Assembly (NCBI RefSeq): GCF_901521055.1
Contig: NZ_CABEGA010000014.1
Coordinates: 1-64,000 of the forward strand
Source: Cellulomonas hominis
GTDB lineage: Bacteria > Actinomycetota > Actinomycetes > Actinomycetales > Cellulomonadaceae
Reading direction: 5' to 3'
DNA length: 64,000 bases
Positions 3,072-37,446 of this stretch are shown here, in pieces. Below the pieces are notes generated by a model, which saw only the letters and a list, made by a program, of their open reading frames with translations, made no database searches and was not told where the DNA came from. How positions within the stretch are numbered: position 1 is the stretch's first letter; each line of letters begins with the position of its first letter. Both the position numbers and the translations under genes were made by a program.

Positions 3072-4031
3072 TCAGCCCTTCACCGCTCCGGACACGAGTC
3101 CCGACGTCATCCTGCCCTGCACGATCAGGAAGAACACGATGACGGGCACGGCGATGAGCGTCGAGGCGGCCATGACCTCGCCCCAGTCGACGCCCCGGTT
3201 GGCGGAGGCGGCCAGGAAGGTGCGCAGCCACAGCGGGAGCGTCTGGGCCGACTCGGCGGGCAGGGCGACCAGCGCGACGGTGAACTCGTTCCAGGCCTGC
3301 AGGAACGCGTAGACGCCGGACGCGACCAGGCCGGGCGCGAGCAGCGGGAACGTGATCCGCAGGAACGCCTTGGTGCGGCTGAGCCCGTCGACCATGGCGG
3401 CCTCCTCGAGCTCGATCGGCACCCCGGCGACGAAGCCGCGGAGCATCCAGATCGTGAACGGCACGACGGCCGCCGTGTAGAGGATCGTGACGCCGACGAC
3501 GCTGTTCAGCAGGTTCACCGACGACAGCATCTTGTACTGCGCGATGAACAGGCCCTCGGCGGGCAGCATCTGCACGAACAGCACCGCGACCACGAACGCG
3601 AGCCGGCCGCGGAACCGGAACCGGCTGATCGCCAGCGCCCCGAAGAACGCGATGACCAGCACCGCCAGCACAGTCAGGCCGGTGATCGCCAGGCTCATCT
3701 GCAGGGCCGAGCCGAACGACGAGCCGTCGAGCACCCGGCGGTAGTTGCCGAGCGTGGCGTTGGTCGGCAGGAACGACGGCGTCGCGGAGCGCAGCCGGGC
3801 CGCCGGGAGCACCGAGGACAGCACCATCCAGTAGACCGGGAAGGCCCAGATCAGGGCGACGACGACGGCGAGCAGGCCGAGCAGGGCACGCCGGACCCGC
3901 CGCGCGAGCCGGCCCCCGGCGCGCCCGGGCGTCCCGGTGCCCGCGGCCGACGGCACGGCCGGCACCCCGGCGCGGGCGGGCTGCGCGGCGAGCGGGCCGG
4001 TCGCCGGCGACGGGGAGGTCGTGGCGCTCAT
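3072..4031 (-). CDS. Sugar ABC transporter permease (MalG/CUT1 type)
   Basis: 319 residues: an alanine/proline-rich cytoplasmic N-terminus of ~45 residues, then six predicted membrane segments. The binding-protein-dependent permease loop reads EEAAMVDGLSRTKAFLRI, the EAA motif that contacts the ATPase. It pairs with the MalF-type permease upstream, whose stop overlaps this ATG by 4 nt (ATGA). No ATP-binding subunit is encoded here. CUT1 importers of actinobacteria commonly share one MsiK-type ATPase encoded elsewhere. Substrate inferred from the operon: amino sugar or chito-oligosaccharide. Confidence 0.92.
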   Translation of the reverse strand: MSATTSPSPATGPLAAQPARAGVPAVPSAAGTGTPGRAGGRLARRVRRALLGLLAVVVALIWAFPVYWMVLSSVLPAARLRSATPSFLPTNATLGNYRRVLDGSSFGSALQMSLAITGLTVLAVLVIAFFGALAISRFRFRGRLAFVVAVLFVQMLPAEGLFIAQYKMLSSVNLLNSVVGVTILYTAAVVPFTIWMLRGFVAGVPIELEEAAMVDGLSRTKAFLRITFPLLAPGLVASGVYAFLQAWNEFTVALVALPAESAQTLPLWLRTFLAASANRGVDWGEVMAASTLIAVPVIVFFLIVQGRMTSGLVSGAVKG

Positions 4032-4981
4032 CGGTCCTCCTTCAGCAGGTTCTGGACGTAGGGCCAGCTGAGCAGGACGGTGAGCGCGAGCACCATGATC
4101 GACACGGCCGCGGCGCCGGCGAAGTCCTGCCGGCCGATGCCGAGCTCGAAGATGAAGTTGCCCAGCAGGTTCGTCTCGCTGACCGGGGCGCCGCCGTCCT
4201 GCAGCAGGCGGATCTGCGCGAACACCCGCAGGTCCCAGATGATCTGCAGGAGCAGCACGATCGACAGCACGGGCCGGACCAGCGGCAGCGTGATGTGCCA
4301 GAGGATCCGGGACGGGCCGGCGCCGTCGATGCGGGCGGCCTCGAGCACCTCGTCGGAGACCTGCGTCAGCGCGGCGTACACGGACAGCGCCACGAACGGC
4401 ACGGACATCCACACGATGATGAGCGTGGCGACGAAGAAGAAGGACAGCGGCTGCGCGAGCCACGCGTGCCCGGCGTACGAGTCGAAGCCGAGCTGCACGA
4501 GCAGCCAGTTCACGACGCCGGTGCGCCAGTCGAACAGCCACTTCCAGACGGTGACCGCGGCGACCAGCGGCATCGCCCACGCCAGCAGCAGGGACACCTG
4601 CAGCACGACCCGGACGACCGGGTGCACGGCCTTCATGAGCAGCGCGAGCAGGACGCCGATGCCGACGGTGACGAACGCGTTCACCAGGCAGAAGGCGATC
4701 GAGCGCACGACCACGGCCCACAGCCGGTCGTCGGAGAAGATCCGGGCGTAGTTGTCGAGCCCGACGAACGTCGGCGGCTGGCCGAACTGCTGGGCCAGCC
4801 CGAACTCCTGCAGCGAGGTGACGACCTGCCAGTACAGCGGGTAGCCGAGCCCGACCAGGAGGATCCCCACGACGGGGACCAGGAGGACGTACGGGGTGAA
4901 GCGGGGGCCGGTGCGCCGGGGGCGGGTGCTCGCAGCGGGAGCCGGCGGGGCGGGCGCGGGACGCGCCGCGGTGGTGGACAT
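4028..4981 (-). CDS. Sugar ABC transporter permease (MalF/CUT1 type)
   Basis: 317 residues with six membrane segments after a short proline/alanine-rich N-terminus. The EAA loop reads EAARIDGAGPSRILWHITLP near residue 220. It is the first permease of the operon, 73 nt after the lipoprotein gene, and the gap contains a strong hairpin (5013-5047). The ATG at 4981 is preceded by a purine-rich stretch on the minus strand (AGGAGAAGG), a good ribosome binding site. It forms the membrane channel with the downstream MalG-type partner. Confidence 0.92.
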   Translation of the reverse strand: MSTTAARPAPAPPAPAASTRPRRTGPRFTPYVLLVPVVGILLVGLGYPLYWQVVTSLQEFGLAQQFGQPPTFVGLDNYARIFSDDRLWAVVVRSIAFCLVNAFVTVGIGVLLALLMKAVHPVVRVVLQVSLLLAWAMPLVAAVTVWKWLFDWRTGVVNWLLVQLGFDSYAGHAWLAQPLSFFFVATLIIVWMSVPFVALSVYAALTQVSDEVLEAARIDGAGPSRILWHITLPLVRPVLSIVLLLQIIWDLRVFAQIRLLQDGGAPVSETNLLGNFIFELGIGRQDFAGAAAVSIMVLALTVLLSWPYVQNLLKEDR

Positions 4982-5054: not shown

Positions 5055-6368
5055 TCAGCCCTCGCCGTTGAGCATCGGCGTGATGGTCTCGTCGTACTGG
5101 GCGGCGAGCTCCGTCACGTCACCACCCTCGGCGATCTTCTGGAAGAGCTCCTCGTAGACGAACGCGCCCTCGACCGCGGCCCAGCCCGGCGCCGCCGGGG
5201 TGAGCTTGGACGCGGCGGCGGTGTCGATCATCGTCTGCGCGAACTCGTCGTCGCCGAGCGAGTCGACGTACTGCGCGTTGGCCGGGCCGAGCCCGTTCTC
5301 GCCGAGCATCTGCTGGTACTCGGGCGAGAAGATGATCCGCAGCAGGTTCTCGGACAGCTCCGGGTGCTGCGACGTCGCGGAGATCGCGACGTTCGAGCCG
5401 CCGGCGAACACCGGCGCGAGGCCGCCGTCCGCACCCGGCAGGGCGAAGATGCCGAACTTCTCGGTGTCCGCCATGCCGTCGCGGACCTCCTCGCCCTCGT
5501 CGTTCGTGGTGAGGTCGCCGATCGACCAGCGGGCCCAGCCCGGGGCCATGATCGTCGCCGCGGCCGGGGCCGCACCCTCGGCCGTGTCGTTCAGGAAGTC
5601 CCAGTACGCGACGTCACGCTCGGTGGCCGGCACGTTCGAGGAGCCCTGGTAGACGGCCTGCCACTGCTCCAGGCCCTCGATGGTCTTCGGGTCGGACAGC
5701 GTGGAGGTCCACTCGCCGCCGTCCTCGGTGGCGAGCTCGCCACCGTTGGCGAACACCCAGGAGATGCCGTTGCGCCAGTCCTGGCCGCCGATCGCGAAGC
5801 CCGACTGGCTGTCCGTGCGGAGCTTGGCGACGGACTCGGAGAACTCGGCGAGCGTGGTGGGCGGGGTCAGCCCGGCCGCCGTCCAGATGTCCTTGCGGTA
5901 GAACATGTAGCGCGAGCCGAAGTAGTACGGCAGCGCGTAGTTCTTGCCGTCCGCCTCGCCGACCTCGACGAAGGACGGCAGCAGGTCGTCGCCGCCCAGC
6001 TCCTCGTACAGCGGGGTCAGGTCGCGGAACGCGCCGATGGTCGTGAAGGTCGGCGACTGCGTGTTGCCGATCTCGACGACGTCCGGGGTGTTCTCCTCGT
6101 CGGGGAGCGCGGTGGTGAGCTTGGTCACCACGTCGTCCCAGGTCTGCTCCTCGATGACGAGGGTCGAGCCCGGGTTCTCCTCCTCGAAGGTGGTCTTGAG
6201 GTAGTCGCGCAGCTCGTCCGGCGTGTCCGCGCCGTTGAGCCAGAGGGTGATCTCCGCGGCCTCGGGGGTGCCGTCGGAGCTGGTCGGGGTGTCGTCGTCG
6301 CCCGACGAGCAGGCGGTCAGCGCGAGCGCCGCCGCCACACCGACGGCTGCCATCCGTACGATCTTCAC
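5055..6368 (-). CDS. Extracellular solute-binding lipoprotein of the sugar ABC transporter
   Basis: 437 residues. A short type II signal peptide ends in the lipobox LTAC|SSG, followed by an acidic Ser/Thr linker, so the protein is a membrane-anchored lipoprotein outside the cell. The body has the family-1 binding-protein pattern (VVTKLTTALPDEENTPDVVE, PYYFGSRYMFYRKDIW). The GTG at 6368 is chosen because GGGAGG lies 9 nt upstream and it gives a normal signal peptide. The open frame continues much further 5' but would run into the ROK regulator. It is followed by both permeases, kinase and nagB, and is probably controlled by the ROK repressor encoded upstream. Confidence 0.92.
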   Translation of the reverse strand: MKIVRMAAVGVAAALALTACSSGDDDTPTSSDGTPEAAEITLWLNGADTPDELRDYLKTTFEEENPGSTLVIEEQTWDDVVTKLTTALPDEENTPDVVEIGNTQSPTFTTIGAFRDLTPLYEELGGDDLLPSFVEVGEADGKNYALPYYFGSRYMFYRKDIWTAAGLTPPTTLAEFSESVAKLRTDSQSGFAIGGQDWRNGISWVFANGGELATEDGGEWTSTLSDPKTIEGLEQWQAVYQGSSNVPATERDVAYWDFLNDTAEGAAPAAATIMAPGWARWSIGDLTTNDEGEEVRDGMADTEKFGIFALPGADGGLAPVFAGGSNVAISATSQHPELSENLLRIIFSPEYQQMLGENGLGPANAQYVDSLGDDEFAQTMIDTAAASKLTPAAPGWAAVEGAFVYEELFQKIAEGGDVTELAAQYDETITPMLNGEG

Positions 6369-25893: not shown

Positions 25894-27225
25894 TCAGTCC
25901 TGCGCCACCGCGCTCCACGCCTCCCACAGCACCGCGGGGACCGCGGGCCGGAATCCTGCTTCGCGCAGCGCCCGGTCGAAGGCCTGCGCCGCGCCGGTGA
26001 CGTCGCCGTGGCCGAGGAACCGGTCGCCGAGCTCGCGCCAGACGGCGGCCGACTGCCGGGACGCCGACATCATGCCGAGCATGTCCGCCGCCCACCGGTA
26101 CGCCCGCGACGCCGCCGGCACCTCGCCGCGCGCGTGCAGCGCGTCACCGAGGGCGAGCTGCGCGGCGCTGCTCTCCAGCCGCGGCTGGTCGCCGAGCCGG
26201 TCGAGCGCCGCCCGGGCGTAGCCCTCGGCCGCGATCGGGTCGCCCTGCATGAGGTGCCCGCGCGACCGCTCGACGTCGAGGCGCGCCATCTCCACCTCGG
26301 AGCCCGACACCGCCAGCTCCGGGGCGGCCCGGTCGAGCTGCTCCAGCGCCATGGCGGGCTCCGCCGGGTCGCTCCGCAGCAGCAGCCACGCGTAGTTCAG
26401 GCGCAGACGCGGGATGTCGCGGCTGACCTCGCCCTCACCGAGCAGCGCGAGCGCCCGCTCGGTGTAGCGCTTGGCGAGCGCGTAGTCGTGGCGCTGCTCC
26501 GCGACGAGCGCGGCGTTCCAGTACACCGAGCCGCGGCCGCGCGGCGTGCCGAGCTGCTCGGCCTGCCGGATCAGCTCCGACGCGCGGTGCGTGGCGTACA
26601 GCAGGTCGCCGCGCTCGACGTAGGCCCACAGCGTGGTGGAGCCGAGCCGCAGGTGCTCGTCCGTGCCGGTGAGGCCGGCCTCCTCGAGCTCCAGCAGCTG
26701 ACGGTCCCCGACCTCGATCGCGCGGCCCAGGTCGCCGGACTCCACGTAGGAGGCGACGAGCGCGGTCGCGGTCGCGGCGGCGTCGAGGTGGTGCGCGTCC
26801 GCACGGGACTGGGTCAGCAGCGGCTCGAGCACCCCGACGGCGGACTCGAGGTCACCGAGCATCTCGTACGCCTGGGCGAGCGCGAGCCGGGAGTCGACGC
26901 GGACCTGCCGCGTCACGGACTCGAGGTCCAGGGCCAGGATGCGGTCGCGGGCGGAGGACGCCTCGCCGGACACCAGGTCCAGGCGGGCGTAGTCGAGCGC
27001 GAGCTTGGCCCGCGCCTCGGCCGGGCCCTCGTCGCCGTGCTTGAGGTACTCGACCGTCGACCCCAGCCGCTCGGCCAGGACGGCGAGCGCGGCGTCGGTG
27101 GGTTCCCGTCGGCCGGACTCGATCAGCGAGATGTAGCTCGGCGAGAGCGCGTCACCGGCGAGGGCCGTCTGGGAGAGCCCAGCGGCCAACCGCGCCTGGC
27201 GGACGCGGTCAGCAATGGAGGTCAT
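25894..27225 (-). CDS. HTH-TPR regulator (RRNPP-like architecture)
   Basis: 443 residues. A Cro/C1-type helix-turn-helix covers residues ~4-60 (RQARLAAGLSQTALAGDALS, then YISLIESGRREPT). From residue ~70 to the end helices repeat at TPR spacing, for example LALAQAYEMLGDLESAVGVL and ALGDALHARGEVPAASRAY. This HTH-plus-TPR layout is that of peptide-sensing RRNPP receptors (PlcR, Rgg, Rap relatives), though similar actinobacterial proteins are also annotated simply as HTH regulators. A tiny secreted-peptide gene lies 131 nt upstream on the same strand. ATG at 27225 matches the family start; a TGTCAC element lies 4 nt before it. Ligand unknown. Confidence 0.85.
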   Translation of the reverse strand: MTSIADRVRQARLAAGLSQTALAGDALSPSYISLIESGRREPTDAALAVLAERLGSTVEYLKHGDEGPAEARAKLALDYARLDLVSGEASSARDRILALDLESVTRQVRVDSRLALAQAYEMLGDLESAVGVLEPLLTQSRADAHHLDAAATATALVASYVESGDLGRAIEVGDRQLLELEEAGLTGTDEHLRLGSTTLWAYVERGDLLYATHRASELIRQAEQLGTPRGRGSVYWNAALVAEQRHDYALAKRYTERALALLGEGEVSRDIPRLRLNYAWLLLRSDPAEPAMALEQLDRAAPELAVSGSEVEMARLDVERSRGHLMQGDPIAAEGYARAALDRLGDQPRLESSAAQLALGDALHARGEVPAASRAYRWAADMLGMMSASRQSAAVWRELGDRFLGHGDVTGAAQAFDRALREAGFRPAVPAVLWEAWSAVAQD

Positions 27226-27245
27226 GGGTGTCACTGTACCTATGA

Positions 27246-27287
27246 CGAGCCGTGACGGCGAGCATGTCACCCGTCCGCCACGGCTCG
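27246..27287. promoter_or_regulatory. Inverted repeat between peptide gene and HTH-TPR gene
   Basis: CGAGCCGTG (27246-27254) pairs with CACGGCTCG (27279-27287), 9 bp, 24-nt loop. The loop contains GTCAC. It could be an attenuator of peptide-gene transcription or an operator for the regulator gene. Position alone does not decide. Confidence 0.45.
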
Positions 27288-27356
27288 CACGGCGATCCCC
27301 CGGCCCGCCCCGTCCACCGAGAGCCAGCAGGGCGAGCCGGGAGGCGCCGAAGGCGT

Positions 27357-27494
27357 TCAGACCGCGATCCGGCAGCAGCCGGTCGCACCGCTCTGGATCT
27401 TGACGATGCCGGCGGCGTTGGCGGCGCCCGAGGCACCGAGGGTCAGGGTCAGGGCGAGGGCGGTGGTCGCGAGGGCCTTCAGCGCAGTACGCAT
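27357..27494 (-). CDS. Small secreted peptide precursor, candidate signal peptide
   Basis: 45 residues. A basic start MRTALK is followed by a hydrophobic core ALATTALALTLTLGASG and a signal peptidase I site at ANA|AG. The predicted mature peptide has about 18 residues, is Gly-rich and ends GCCRIAV with two adjacent cysteines. AGGAGA lies 6 nt before the ATG, an excellent ribosome binding site, which argues the gene is real despite its size. It is transcribed toward the HTH-TPR regulator gene. Upstream sit two direct CTGTCACA repeats and a perfect 14-bp palindrome. It could be an extracellular signal, a bacteriocin-like peptide or a structural secreted peptide. Confidence 0.72.
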   Translation of the reverse strand: MRTALKALATTALALTLTLGASGAANAAGIVKIQSGATGCCRIAV

Positions 27495-27504
27495 GGGATG
27501 TCTC

Positions 27505-27533
27505 CTGTCACAGAACGTTGACTCTCTGTCACA
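27505..27533. promoter_or_regulatory. Direct repeat CTGTCACA, 21-nt period, before the peptide gene
   Basis: CTGTCACA at 27505-27512 and 27526-27533, exactly two helical turns apart. The core TGTCAC also occurs at 27229-27234 and 27265-27270 before the HTH-TPR gene. Such phased repeats suit a dimeric regulator. Binding by the neighbouring HTH protein is inference. Confidence 0.5.
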
Positions 27534-27548
27534 ACGATCATGACTTAC

Positions 27549-27562: not shown

Positions 27563-27703
27563 ACCACCGCCTGAGCGTTTTCGCAGCATGTCCGCCCATA
27601 CGGGTGAATCAGCAGGTGATGCGCCGCACGATCGCGGGACATCACCCCCGGTCAGAGAAGTTCCCCGGTGTCATGCGGCCCGTCCTGTGGTGTCATAGAC
27701 GAC

Positions 27704-28456
27704 ATGACGAGGGGACACGGCGAAGCGGAGCGGCGTCTGGCCGACGCGGTCGACGCGGCGATCCCGGACGCCCTGCGGCGCGAGTGGGACCGGCACGTCG
27801 CGCAGGAGCAGGTGATCGTCGGGCGGCAGGGCATCTTCTCTCCGCGCCTGCACCCTTTCGGCTACGAGCTGGCCTTCCGCGTCCCGGGCACCACGTGCGC
27901 GGACGCGGCGGCGTGGTCCGACCTGCAGCACGAGCGCGCCACGAGCGCGGTGCTCCGGGCGACCTTCGGGCGCGCCGACGTCGACGAGGTCGGGCACGGC
28001 CGCTGGCTGTTCGTCCGGTGCCCGCGCGCGTACCTGGTGGGCGACCTGCAGCTGCCGTCCCGGCCCGACCGTCTCGTCATCGAGATCGCGGGGAGCACCC
28101 GGATCGACGGCGACATCCTGCGTGGCGTGCGGCGGCTGCGCGAGCAGGGCTTCCGGATCGCCATGGCCGGCTTCGTGTCCCGGCCGGACCAGCGGTCGCT
28201 GCTCCCCCAGGCCGACTTCGTGAAGATCGACGCGCGGGACCTCGACGTCGAGGGCGAGCCGGTGGTCGACCTGGCGCGGTCGCACGGCGCGCTGCTGGTC
28301 GCGGAGTTCGTCGAGTCCAGCACCGAGCTGAAGGCCGGGCGCCGGCTGGGGTTCGACCTCTACCAGGGCAACCTGCTGGAGCGCAGCCTGCTGCTCGACC
28401 GGTCGTCGGCCCCGCTGATCGGACCCGACCACGACTCGATCGGCCGCTACCTCTGA
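27704..28456 (+). CDS. Degenerate EAL-domain protein (YuxH-like)
   Basis: 250 residues. It resembles the EAL half of YuxH/EAL-HDOD proteins: GIFSPRLHPFGYELAFR at the position of the EAL motif, then DFVKIDARDLD and LLVAEFVESSTELKAGRRLG, GFDLYQGNLLERS. The catalytic EAL signature has become YEL and several metal-binding acidic residues are not evident, so cyclic-di-GMP hydrolysis is unlikely. A binding or scaffold role is more probable. There is no HDOD domain. Start uncertain: ATG 27704 is preferred over the in-frame GTG 27668. GGTGTCAT occurs twice upstream (27667 and 27689). Confidence 0.75.
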   Translation: MTRGHGEAERRLADAVDAAIPDALRREWDRHVAQEQVIVGRQGIFSPRLHPFGYELAFRVPGTTCADAAAWSDLQHERATSAVLRATFGRADVDEVGHGRWLFVRCPRAYLVGDLQLPSRPDRLVIEIAGSTRIDGDILRGVRRLREQGFRIAMAGFVSRPDQRSLLPQADFVKIDARDLDVEGEPVVDLARSHGALLVAEFVESSTELKAGRRLGFDLYQGNLLERSLLLDRSSAPLIGPDHDSIGRYL

Positions 28457-36198: not shown

Positions 36199-37446
36199 TC
36201 AGCCTGCGGTCGTGGGCACCGGTGCCCGGCCCCGCGCGCCCAGCAGCGTCACCGCGGCGATGACCAGGCCGACGGCGGTGAGCCCCGCCCCGACCCACGC
36301 GGGCGCGAGGTAGCCGAGTCCGCCGGCGATGACGAGCCCGCCGGCCCACGCCCCCGCCGCGTTGCCGGCGTTGAGCGCCGAGTGGCACAGGGCGGCGCCG
36401 AGCGAGGGCGCGGACGGCGACAGGTCCATCAGCCAGGACTGCAGCGCGAGCCCGAGCACCTGCGACGTCACCCCGAGCAGCATGATCGCCAGCACCCCGG
36501 CCACCACCCACTGCGCGAGCACGGCGATCAGCACCAGCGCGACGATCGTCGACGCGAAGCCCACCAGCACCGTGCGGGCCACCGACCGGTCCGCGAGCCG
36601 GCCGCCGAGCAGCGTGCCGATCGTCATGCCGACGCCGAACAGGGCCAGCACGACGGGCACGGTCGCCTCGGCGATGCCCGTGACCTCGGTGAGCAGCGGC
36701 GACACGTACGAGTAGACCGCGAACATGCCGCCGAACCCGATCGACCCCGCGGCGCACGCCACCCAGAGCCGGCCGTTGCGCAAGGCTCCGAGCTCGCCGC
36801 GCACGCTCGCGCCGTCCCGGACCGCCAGCCCGGGGATCCAGCGCAGCAGCGCCCCCAGCGTGACGAGGCCCAGCACGCCGACGGCGACGAACGCGACCCG
36901 CCACCCGAAGACCTGGCCCAGCACGGTCGACAGCGGCACCCCGACGACGTTGGCGATGGTCAGGCCGGCCATCATCGTGGCGACCGCCTGGCCGCGCCGG
37001 CCCGGACCGGCGACGTGCGCGCCCATCACCGCGCCGACGCCGAAGAACGCGCCGTGCGGGAGGCCCGCCACGAACCGCGCGAGGACGAGCCACCCGAGCG
37101 ACGGCGCGAGGGCCGACAGCACGTTGCCGACGGTGAACGCCGCCATCAGCAGGAGCAGGAGCCGGCGGCGGTCCATCCGGGCGGCGAGGGTCGTGAGCAG
37201 CGGGGCGCCGACGACCACGCCGAGCGCGTAGGCCGTGATCGCGTGGCCCGTCTCGGGGATGGTCGCGCGCAGGTCGTCCGCGATCAGCGGCAGCAGGCCC
37301 ATCGTCGCGAACTCGGTGGTGCCGATGCTGAACCCGCCGAGCGCCAGCGCGAGCAGCGGCAGCCGCGCGCGACGGCGGACCAGGTGGGGGTCGAGCACGA
37401 CGTCCGTGGCGGCCTCGGGCGTGCCGTCCTGCGTGCTGATCCCCAC
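36199..37446 (-). CDS. MFS efflux transporter, DHA1 (AraJ/Cml type)
   Basis: 415 residues with 12 predicted helices. Signatures: LALGGFSIGTTEFATMGLLP in helix 1, GAPLLTTLAARMDRRRLLL for motif A and FVAGLPHGAFFGVGAVMGAH, as in arabinose-efflux/chloramphenicol-resistance permeases. Probably a proton-coupled exporter; the substrate is unknown. The GTG at 37446 follows GGGAGCAC and gives the family N-terminus. 82 nt before leuS on the same strand. Confidence 0.9.
   Translation of the reverse strand: MGISTQDGTPEAATDVVLDPHLVRRRARLPLLALALGGFSIGTTEFATMGLLPLIADDLRATIPETGHAITAYALGVVVGAPLLTTLAARMDRRRLLLLLMAAFTVGNVLSALAPSLGWLVLARFVAGLPHGAFFGVGAVMGAHVAGPGRRGQAVATMMAGLTIANVVGVPLSTVLGQVFGWRVAFVAVGVLGLVTLGALLRWIPGLAVRDGASVRGELGALRNGRLWVACAAGSIGFGGMFAVYSYVSPLLTEVTGIAEATVPVVLALFGVGMTIGTLLGGRLADRSVARTVLVGFASTIVALVLIAVLAQWVVAGVLAIMLLGVTSQVLGLALQSWLMDLSPSAPSLGAALCHSALNAGNAAGAWAGGLVIAGGLGYLAPAWVGAGLTAVGLVIAAVTLLGARGRAPVPTTAG

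Follow-up and report, generated by a model that had tools for sequence, protein, structure and literature searches.

Peptide quorum sensing that relies on TPR receptors inside the cell is on record for Bacillota, and the RRNPP/RRNPPA systems occur also in their phages. In those RRNPP/RRNPPA systems whose receptor carries its own HTH (PlcR-PapR, NprR-NprX, Rgg-SHP, ComR-ComS and AimR-AimP) a cytoplasmic HTH-TPR receptor is encoded beside a gene for a short propeptide, as it is at the locus described here. Rap is not known to have an HTH; MalT is a large ATPase that senses maltotriose; and the gamma-butyrolactone systems use a small-molecule signal with a TetR-type receptor. The last of these, in Streptomyces, are cell-to-cell signalling in the phylum to which the present locus belongs (PMC4748050). 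The large RRNPP survey is reported to have covered Firmicutes and viruses (PMC10075063), and the main texts of two papers on RRNPPA evolution (one of them PMC9765709) contain no word starting with 'actino'. Among the matches listed for open-access full text, from which most subscription papers and bioRxiv preprints are missing, no description of such actinobacterial pairs was found.

The locus lies in a 64-kb stretch of Cellulomonas hominis DNA (the window, i.e. the whole stretch that was analysed), and its features are collected in Table 1. It probably encodes a peptide pheromone together with its receptor, acting in the manner of the Bacillota RRNPP systems but in Actinomycetes and with vicinal cysteines in the pheromone, a reading that is limited by the lack of any binding, secretion or expression data.

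Table 1. Features of the locus in window coordinates
Feature	Position	Strand	Basis or remark
HTH-TPR regulator / probable peptide receptor, 443 aa	25894..27225	minus	HTH ~4-66, TPR superhelix ~68-422
Trp236-Asn237 codons, candidate peptide-recognition site, TPR helix 228-244	26515..26520	minus	receptor comparison
Putative operator, regulator promoter	27230..27246	.	overlaps -10-like TACAGT, ends 4 nt before ATG
Propeptide gene	27357..27494	minus	45 aa; conserved small ORF in 52/52 family-A loci
Cys40-Cys41 codons of propeptide	27372-27377	minus	
Proposed signal peptide, residues 1-27	27414-27494	minus	mature tail = residues 28-45
Shine-Dalgarno AGGAG of propeptide gene	27502..27506	minus	sequence; 7 nt 5' of ATG
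Putative operator, propeptide upstream region	27528..27544	.	palindrome GTCA-N9-TGAC
Putative operator, overlapping EAL gene start	27692..27708	.	palindrome GTCA-N9-TGAC
EAL-domain gene, divergent from propeptide gene, probable regulon member	27704..28456	+	Pfam EAL; neighbour in 51/52 family-A loci

The propeptide gene and the regulator

The 45 codons of the propeptide gene encode MRTALKALATTALALTLTLGASGAANA followed by AGIVKIQSGATGCCRIAV, the boundary between the two being a cut site that is proposed and not computed. From a basic N-terminus the product runs through a hydrophobic core and an Ala-Asn-Ala site into the tail AGIVKIQSGATGCCRIAV, whose 18 residues terminate in GCCRIAV; the ribosome binding site, the signal peptide and the tail of about 18 residues with this ending had all been predicted for the gene, and the sequence agrees on each. 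A scan for ORFs with an SD-like site, a hydrophobic N-terminus and CC no more than 8 residues from the end returned no other ORF in the window. Compared with eight near relatives, substitutions at codon positions 1, 2 and 3 number 51, 36 and 86, and this third-position excess is a pattern like that of translated genes; constraint is loose, since nonsynonymous codon changes (77) outnumber synonymous ones (69), and the eight relatives do not count as independent. The propeptides of all 52 loci of the same regulator family (family A, below) match the loose pattern [AVTSG]xA at 18-34 and have GCC close to the end.

The regulator begins with an ATG 131 nt past the propeptide stop, on the same strand. 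Pfam assigns it HTH_3 (8-61) and a MalT-like TPR region (106-321), and its AF2 model (pLDDT 90.9, pTM 0.80) has an HTH followed by a TPR superhelix; the arrangement of N-terminal HTH and C-terminal TPR superhelix that marks RRNPP/RRNPPA receptors is thus present, as had been proposed from the gene's layout, and NprR, Rap and PlcR are among the matches. Structural matches to the model are LGN (Z 26), Rap (up to 22.1), NprR (21.4, over 63-424) and MalT (19.7), with PlcR found by Foldseek (E 3.4e-6); PlcR also matches in sequence over 3-183 (E 1.2e-8), but designed TPRs and LGN match better. Taken alone the fold is a generic TPR, because eukaryotic LGN outscores the RRNPP proteins. The predicted structure shows a peptide-binding kind of fold, and descent from RRNPP is not demonstrated by it.

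Linkage of the pair and its spread in Actinomycetes

A search of 39 genomes, the own one among them, yielded 19 orthologs of at least 59% identity in the genus besides the window's own, and each of these first 20 is preceded by a small ORF for a secreted product that has GCC close to its C-terminus. Named genomes gave 71 regulator loci: 52 of family A, which is the window's, 16 of the paralogous family B (~40% identity), and three others, one from Streptomyces and two from Microbispora. By scan a secreted CC ORF lies near 70 of the 71; at the remaining one, in Streptomyces, a CC ORF downstream of and convergent with the regulator was seen only by a relaxed look. The conserved linkage in relatives that had been suggested as a check is therefore found, and an adjacent gene for a short secreted propeptide, as in RRNPP/RRNPPA systems, is present at 71/71 named loci and, with CC or another tail, at 61/90 loci class-wide. 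The position of the peptide gene differs among families: in family B it was downstream in 10/10 loci examined, in tandem in five of them, with tails like SPCCK, and in other families it is divergent from the regulator. One family-B regulator is followed by five tandem CC propeptide genes (starts 5605 to 6295), and two others by four each (starts 3722 to 4500). Within 160 kb close to the 71 regulators the CC filter picked out 80 ORFs, whereas the 391 kb lying farther out at the same loci gave no hit; it is post hoc, as the scans were written after the window peptide was known, and related loci are not independent. Tails vary by lineage (GCC[RK]x, PCCKx, CC-end, Trp/Pro forms), which is likewise a trait of RRNPP/RRNPPA systems; that the tail is the signal is an inference.

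The order search placed the regulator in at least 17 of 297 genomes and at least 22 places (threshold 1e-30), of which 17 have a CC ORF of their own, one shares that of its neighbour, and four have none by scan. The class search placed it in at least 70 of 394 genomes, own included, and at least 95 places (threshold 1e-40). Both tallies are lower bounds, because scoring was confined to the top 4 or 5 candidates of each genome, and the class counts rest on 90 of the 95 places: a CC propeptide accompanies the regulator at 54, a gene of this type with a different tail at 7, contig ends cut off 2, and at 27 no peptide was found. Exactly CC ends 49 of the 54, and a few of the 54 have weak start signals. 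The other-tail ORFs, read by eye from a six-frame print, are secreted and divergent, with endings such as GWNHPG, WNGPW and PWQWPI and in one case LGPLNNAE. An 'ASCCAC' ORF downstream at two of these seven places was judged an antisense artefact and removed, lowering the CC count from 56 to 54, and a CC-ending ORF 1.8 kb from the regulator at one further place (L198), beyond the range of the scan, was excluded. At three places no peptide was seen when the six-frame print was read by eye. A single paralog clade accounts for 17 of the 27 peptide-less places; no CC ORF was found beside any of its members, and in the 11 inspected with a stricter filter there was no secreted ORF of any kind. A regulator kept without its peptide had been named as the observation that would refute the pair; this does not occur in family A, where the propeptide is retained in 52/52 loci, but among more distant relatives these scans found no nearby peptide at 27 of 90 places.

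At four class-search places the opposite flank of the regulator holds a second secreted CC-ending ORF, of the ...DGGSDFCC type. At one order-search place (L041) two HTH-TPR regulators stand in tandem and no CC peptide is visible; the regulator that is complete carries Asn237 and is perhaps served by a peptide encoded elsewhere.

Of eight records covered (7 of 16 from a plasmid collection and one phage record), three contain a peptide: on an S. goshikiensis plasmid an annotated hypothetical protein ending DIPLCC is encoded 167 nt after the regulator, in the plasmid-collection record of Streptomyces NBC_01707 one ending DLPLCC lies ~1.9 kb after it, and in that of Nonomuraea one ending GDAGCC is divergent. 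No acceptable peptide was found in the other five, which include an unannotated phage-collection fragment. At the S. goshikiensis locus, WP_008741297.1 (4086-4301), annotated as hypothetical, ends in CC next to the regulator, and its surroundings include sugar-type genes and a gene for a BTAD-domain regulator.

Absence is also shared. Seven genomes of the same genus that lack the regulator (five from the 39-genome search and two from the order search) were inspected from rpsT to holA, and in 7/7 no secreted CC peptide was found at that site either, the rest of these genomes being outside the inspection. All seven retain rpsT, EAL and holA there, plus a second, tandem EAL gene.

Receptor sequences were compared according to the peptide found beside them. 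Trp236 is invariant in 70 CC-linked receptors, and residue 237 is Asn in 64 of these; Asn237 is thus missing in 6/70, and it is present in 5/34 receptors without a CC peptide nearby (four from the class search, L198 among them, and L041). Among columns 67-429, column 237 is the best discriminator of CC-linked receptors from the rest. The seven other-tail receptors have Gly, Ala or Gln at 237 and Leu at 233, and in the 17 peptide-less paralogs residue 237 is Gln, Arg, Glu or His. By the usual TPR numbering 233 and 237 would be positions 2 and 6, the ones that in known TPRs are turned towards the ligand. The seven other-tail receptors form one clade (SH-aLRT 100) nested inside the CC-linked receptors, so the switch from CC to another tail, with its change at 233 and 237, is essentially one event; a test on independent pairs lends the link between Asn237 and CC no significance (6 pairs, median p 0.5). 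Asn237 may accordingly be called no more than a candidate recognition residue, supported by few independent events and an indirect correlation in sequence alignments, with no binding data.

Putative operators, the EAL gene and a proposed mechanism

TGTCAC elements had been reported before both genes, and four of the nine in the window do fall within 27229-27532. As an element in its own right, however, TGTCAC is rejected, being rarer in the window than chance would give (9 vs 28 expected); the sites are better described as arms of the palindrome GTCA-N9-TGAC, of which the window has four exact copies vs 0.93 expected; three of these cluster within 480 bp, at the starts of the regulator, peptide and EAL genes. 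The fourth (36248-36264) is GC-rich and possibly due to chance. In family A the regulator-start palindrome is exact in 50/52 loci and within one mismatch in 52/52; that upstream of the peptide is exact in 34/52 and within one mismatch in 42/52, some at another distance; and that at the EAL start is exact in 44 of the 51 loci where EAL adjoins the pair, leaving seven without an exact site. At the EAL start of the pair-less loci it is exact in 0/7 and has one mismatch in 2/7. Eleven further exact palindromes occur elsewhere in 468 kb of locus DNA. The form GTCAY-N7-RTGAC is found at 28 places in the own genome and, among the matches listed, at 25-39 in five relatives; these genome-wide places are mostly GC-rich and probably chance. 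The regulator-start palindrome overlaps a TACAAT-like -10 right before the ATG, and for this reason a leaderless message and control by occlusion are suggested. That the regulator is what binds these sites is inferred, with no binding data.

Between rpsT and holA the window holds the pair and the EAL gene only, and family A conserves this neighbourhood (farther flanks were not annotated). Judged by its translation against the EAL consensus, the EAL protein retains the KID motif and the first Glu and lacks the DDFG motif; owing to the apparent loss of the latter it may not be a working phosphodiesterase. With comEC near the locus, competence control is no more than a conjecture.

In the mechanism that we propose, the propeptide would be exported via Sec and cut after Ala-Asn-Ala, and the 18-residue tail, or a C-terminal piece holding Cys-Cys, would build up outside. 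It would then be re-imported by an oligopeptide ABC transporter (the own genome encodes eight SBP_bac_5 (Opp-type) binding proteins as candidates) and would bind within the TPR superhelix near Trp236-Asn237, altering the contact of the HTH with GTCA-N9-TGAC at the regulator, propeptide and EAL starts. Because -10-like or start regions are overlapped by the operators, repression is most likely the work of the apo-regulator and would be lifted by the peptide; the regulator, peptide and EAL genes would then be derepressed, with positive feedback as the outcome. Cleavage, import, binding, the identity of the operator-binding protein, the direction of regulation and the function of EAL are inferred in this scheme. 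What sequence and models do show is the anatomy of the genes, their linkage and shared absence from the site, the operators with their decay in loci without the pair, and the fold.

Competing explanations and comparison with known systems

The small ORF could be a cis-acting leader, either a cysteine attenuator or a secretion-monitoring arrest peptide, in which ribosomes stalled at Cys-Cys close to the stop codon control the regulator's translation or transcription. Such a role would suit the window, where the ORF precedes the regulator in the same orientation, and the counted tails, in which Cys-Cys is near or at the stop codon; it is nonetheless highly improbable. In other families the ORF is divergent from, downstream of or convergent with the regulator and so cannot act on it in cis, which means that the criterion for an attenuator, a leader upstream in cis on the same transcript, is not met in these relatives. 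The window regulator has, besides, a promoter-like sequence of its own within the 131-nt gap, the family-A ORFs have signal-peptide-like N-termini, and in one clade other tails replace CC. A different role for a secreted product, that of an effector (antimicrobial, metal- or thiol-binding, or toxin-like) with the HTH-TPR protein as only its local regulator or immunity factor, is harder to set aside, though still unlikely. Vicinal cysteines can as a general matter bind metals and make redox pairs, the tandem propeptides of family B resemble product arrays, and the operator is found also at the EAL gene. Against these points, the interval from rpsT to holA in the window contains nothing besides the pair and EAL, neighbours that family A conserves, the receptor fold binds peptides in known proteins, and the change from CC to another tail coincides with receptor changes at 233 and 237, even if as one event.

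Synteny is strong in Cellulomonas, and linkage there could therefore be inherited and not functional, the small ORF being an unrelated conserved secreted protein that happens to sit beside a regulator. This explanation is scarcely tenable when the linkage recurs in several arrangements, families and genera, including Streptomyces, Microbispora and Nonomuraea, and when the two genes are jointly absent from a site whose neighbours remain. The pheromone/receptor pair is thus preferred, and the signalling role first proposed for the two genes is largely supported (linkage in 52/52 family-A loci, joint absence in 7/7, fold), with binding and signalling not shown. A wider proposal can be made only tentatively: that actinomycetes possess a widespread pheromone language in which a secreted peptide ending in Cys-Cys is read by Asn237 in the TPR groove, possibly in a thiol/disulfide-sensitive manner, that one lineage went over to Trp/Pro tails with a change in the receptor, and that the whole has maybe an origin separate from that of Bacillota RRNPP.

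Recurrence of the pairing in many actinobacteria points to peptide cell-to-cell signalling in a phylum in which such systems are barely documented. A recurrent actinomycete version would make genetically encoded peptide signalling testable in a phylum noted above all for its antibiotics, and vicinal cysteines are a signature by which the propeptide genes are easily found.

The system is read as one that functions like RRNPP; its membership by descent is not established. With the RRNPP/RRNPPA systems that have their own HTH it shares a variable C-terminal signal and a similar predicted TPR superhelix. Unlike them, it is found in Actinomycetes, its signal holds a vicinal Cys-Cys, which across the class mostly forms the last two residues, and its palindromic operator occurs also at an EAL gene; a relationship beyond the generic TPR fold is unproven. 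MalT-like TPR regulators resemble the window regulator in the Pfam TPR_MalT match and in structure (Z 19.7), but MalT is not known to come with a peptide gene. Rap-Phr, like the pair, combines a TPR receptor with a Sec-exported propeptide and gives a structural match of Z ~22; Rap, however, acts on proteins, whereas the window regulator has a DNA-binding domain.
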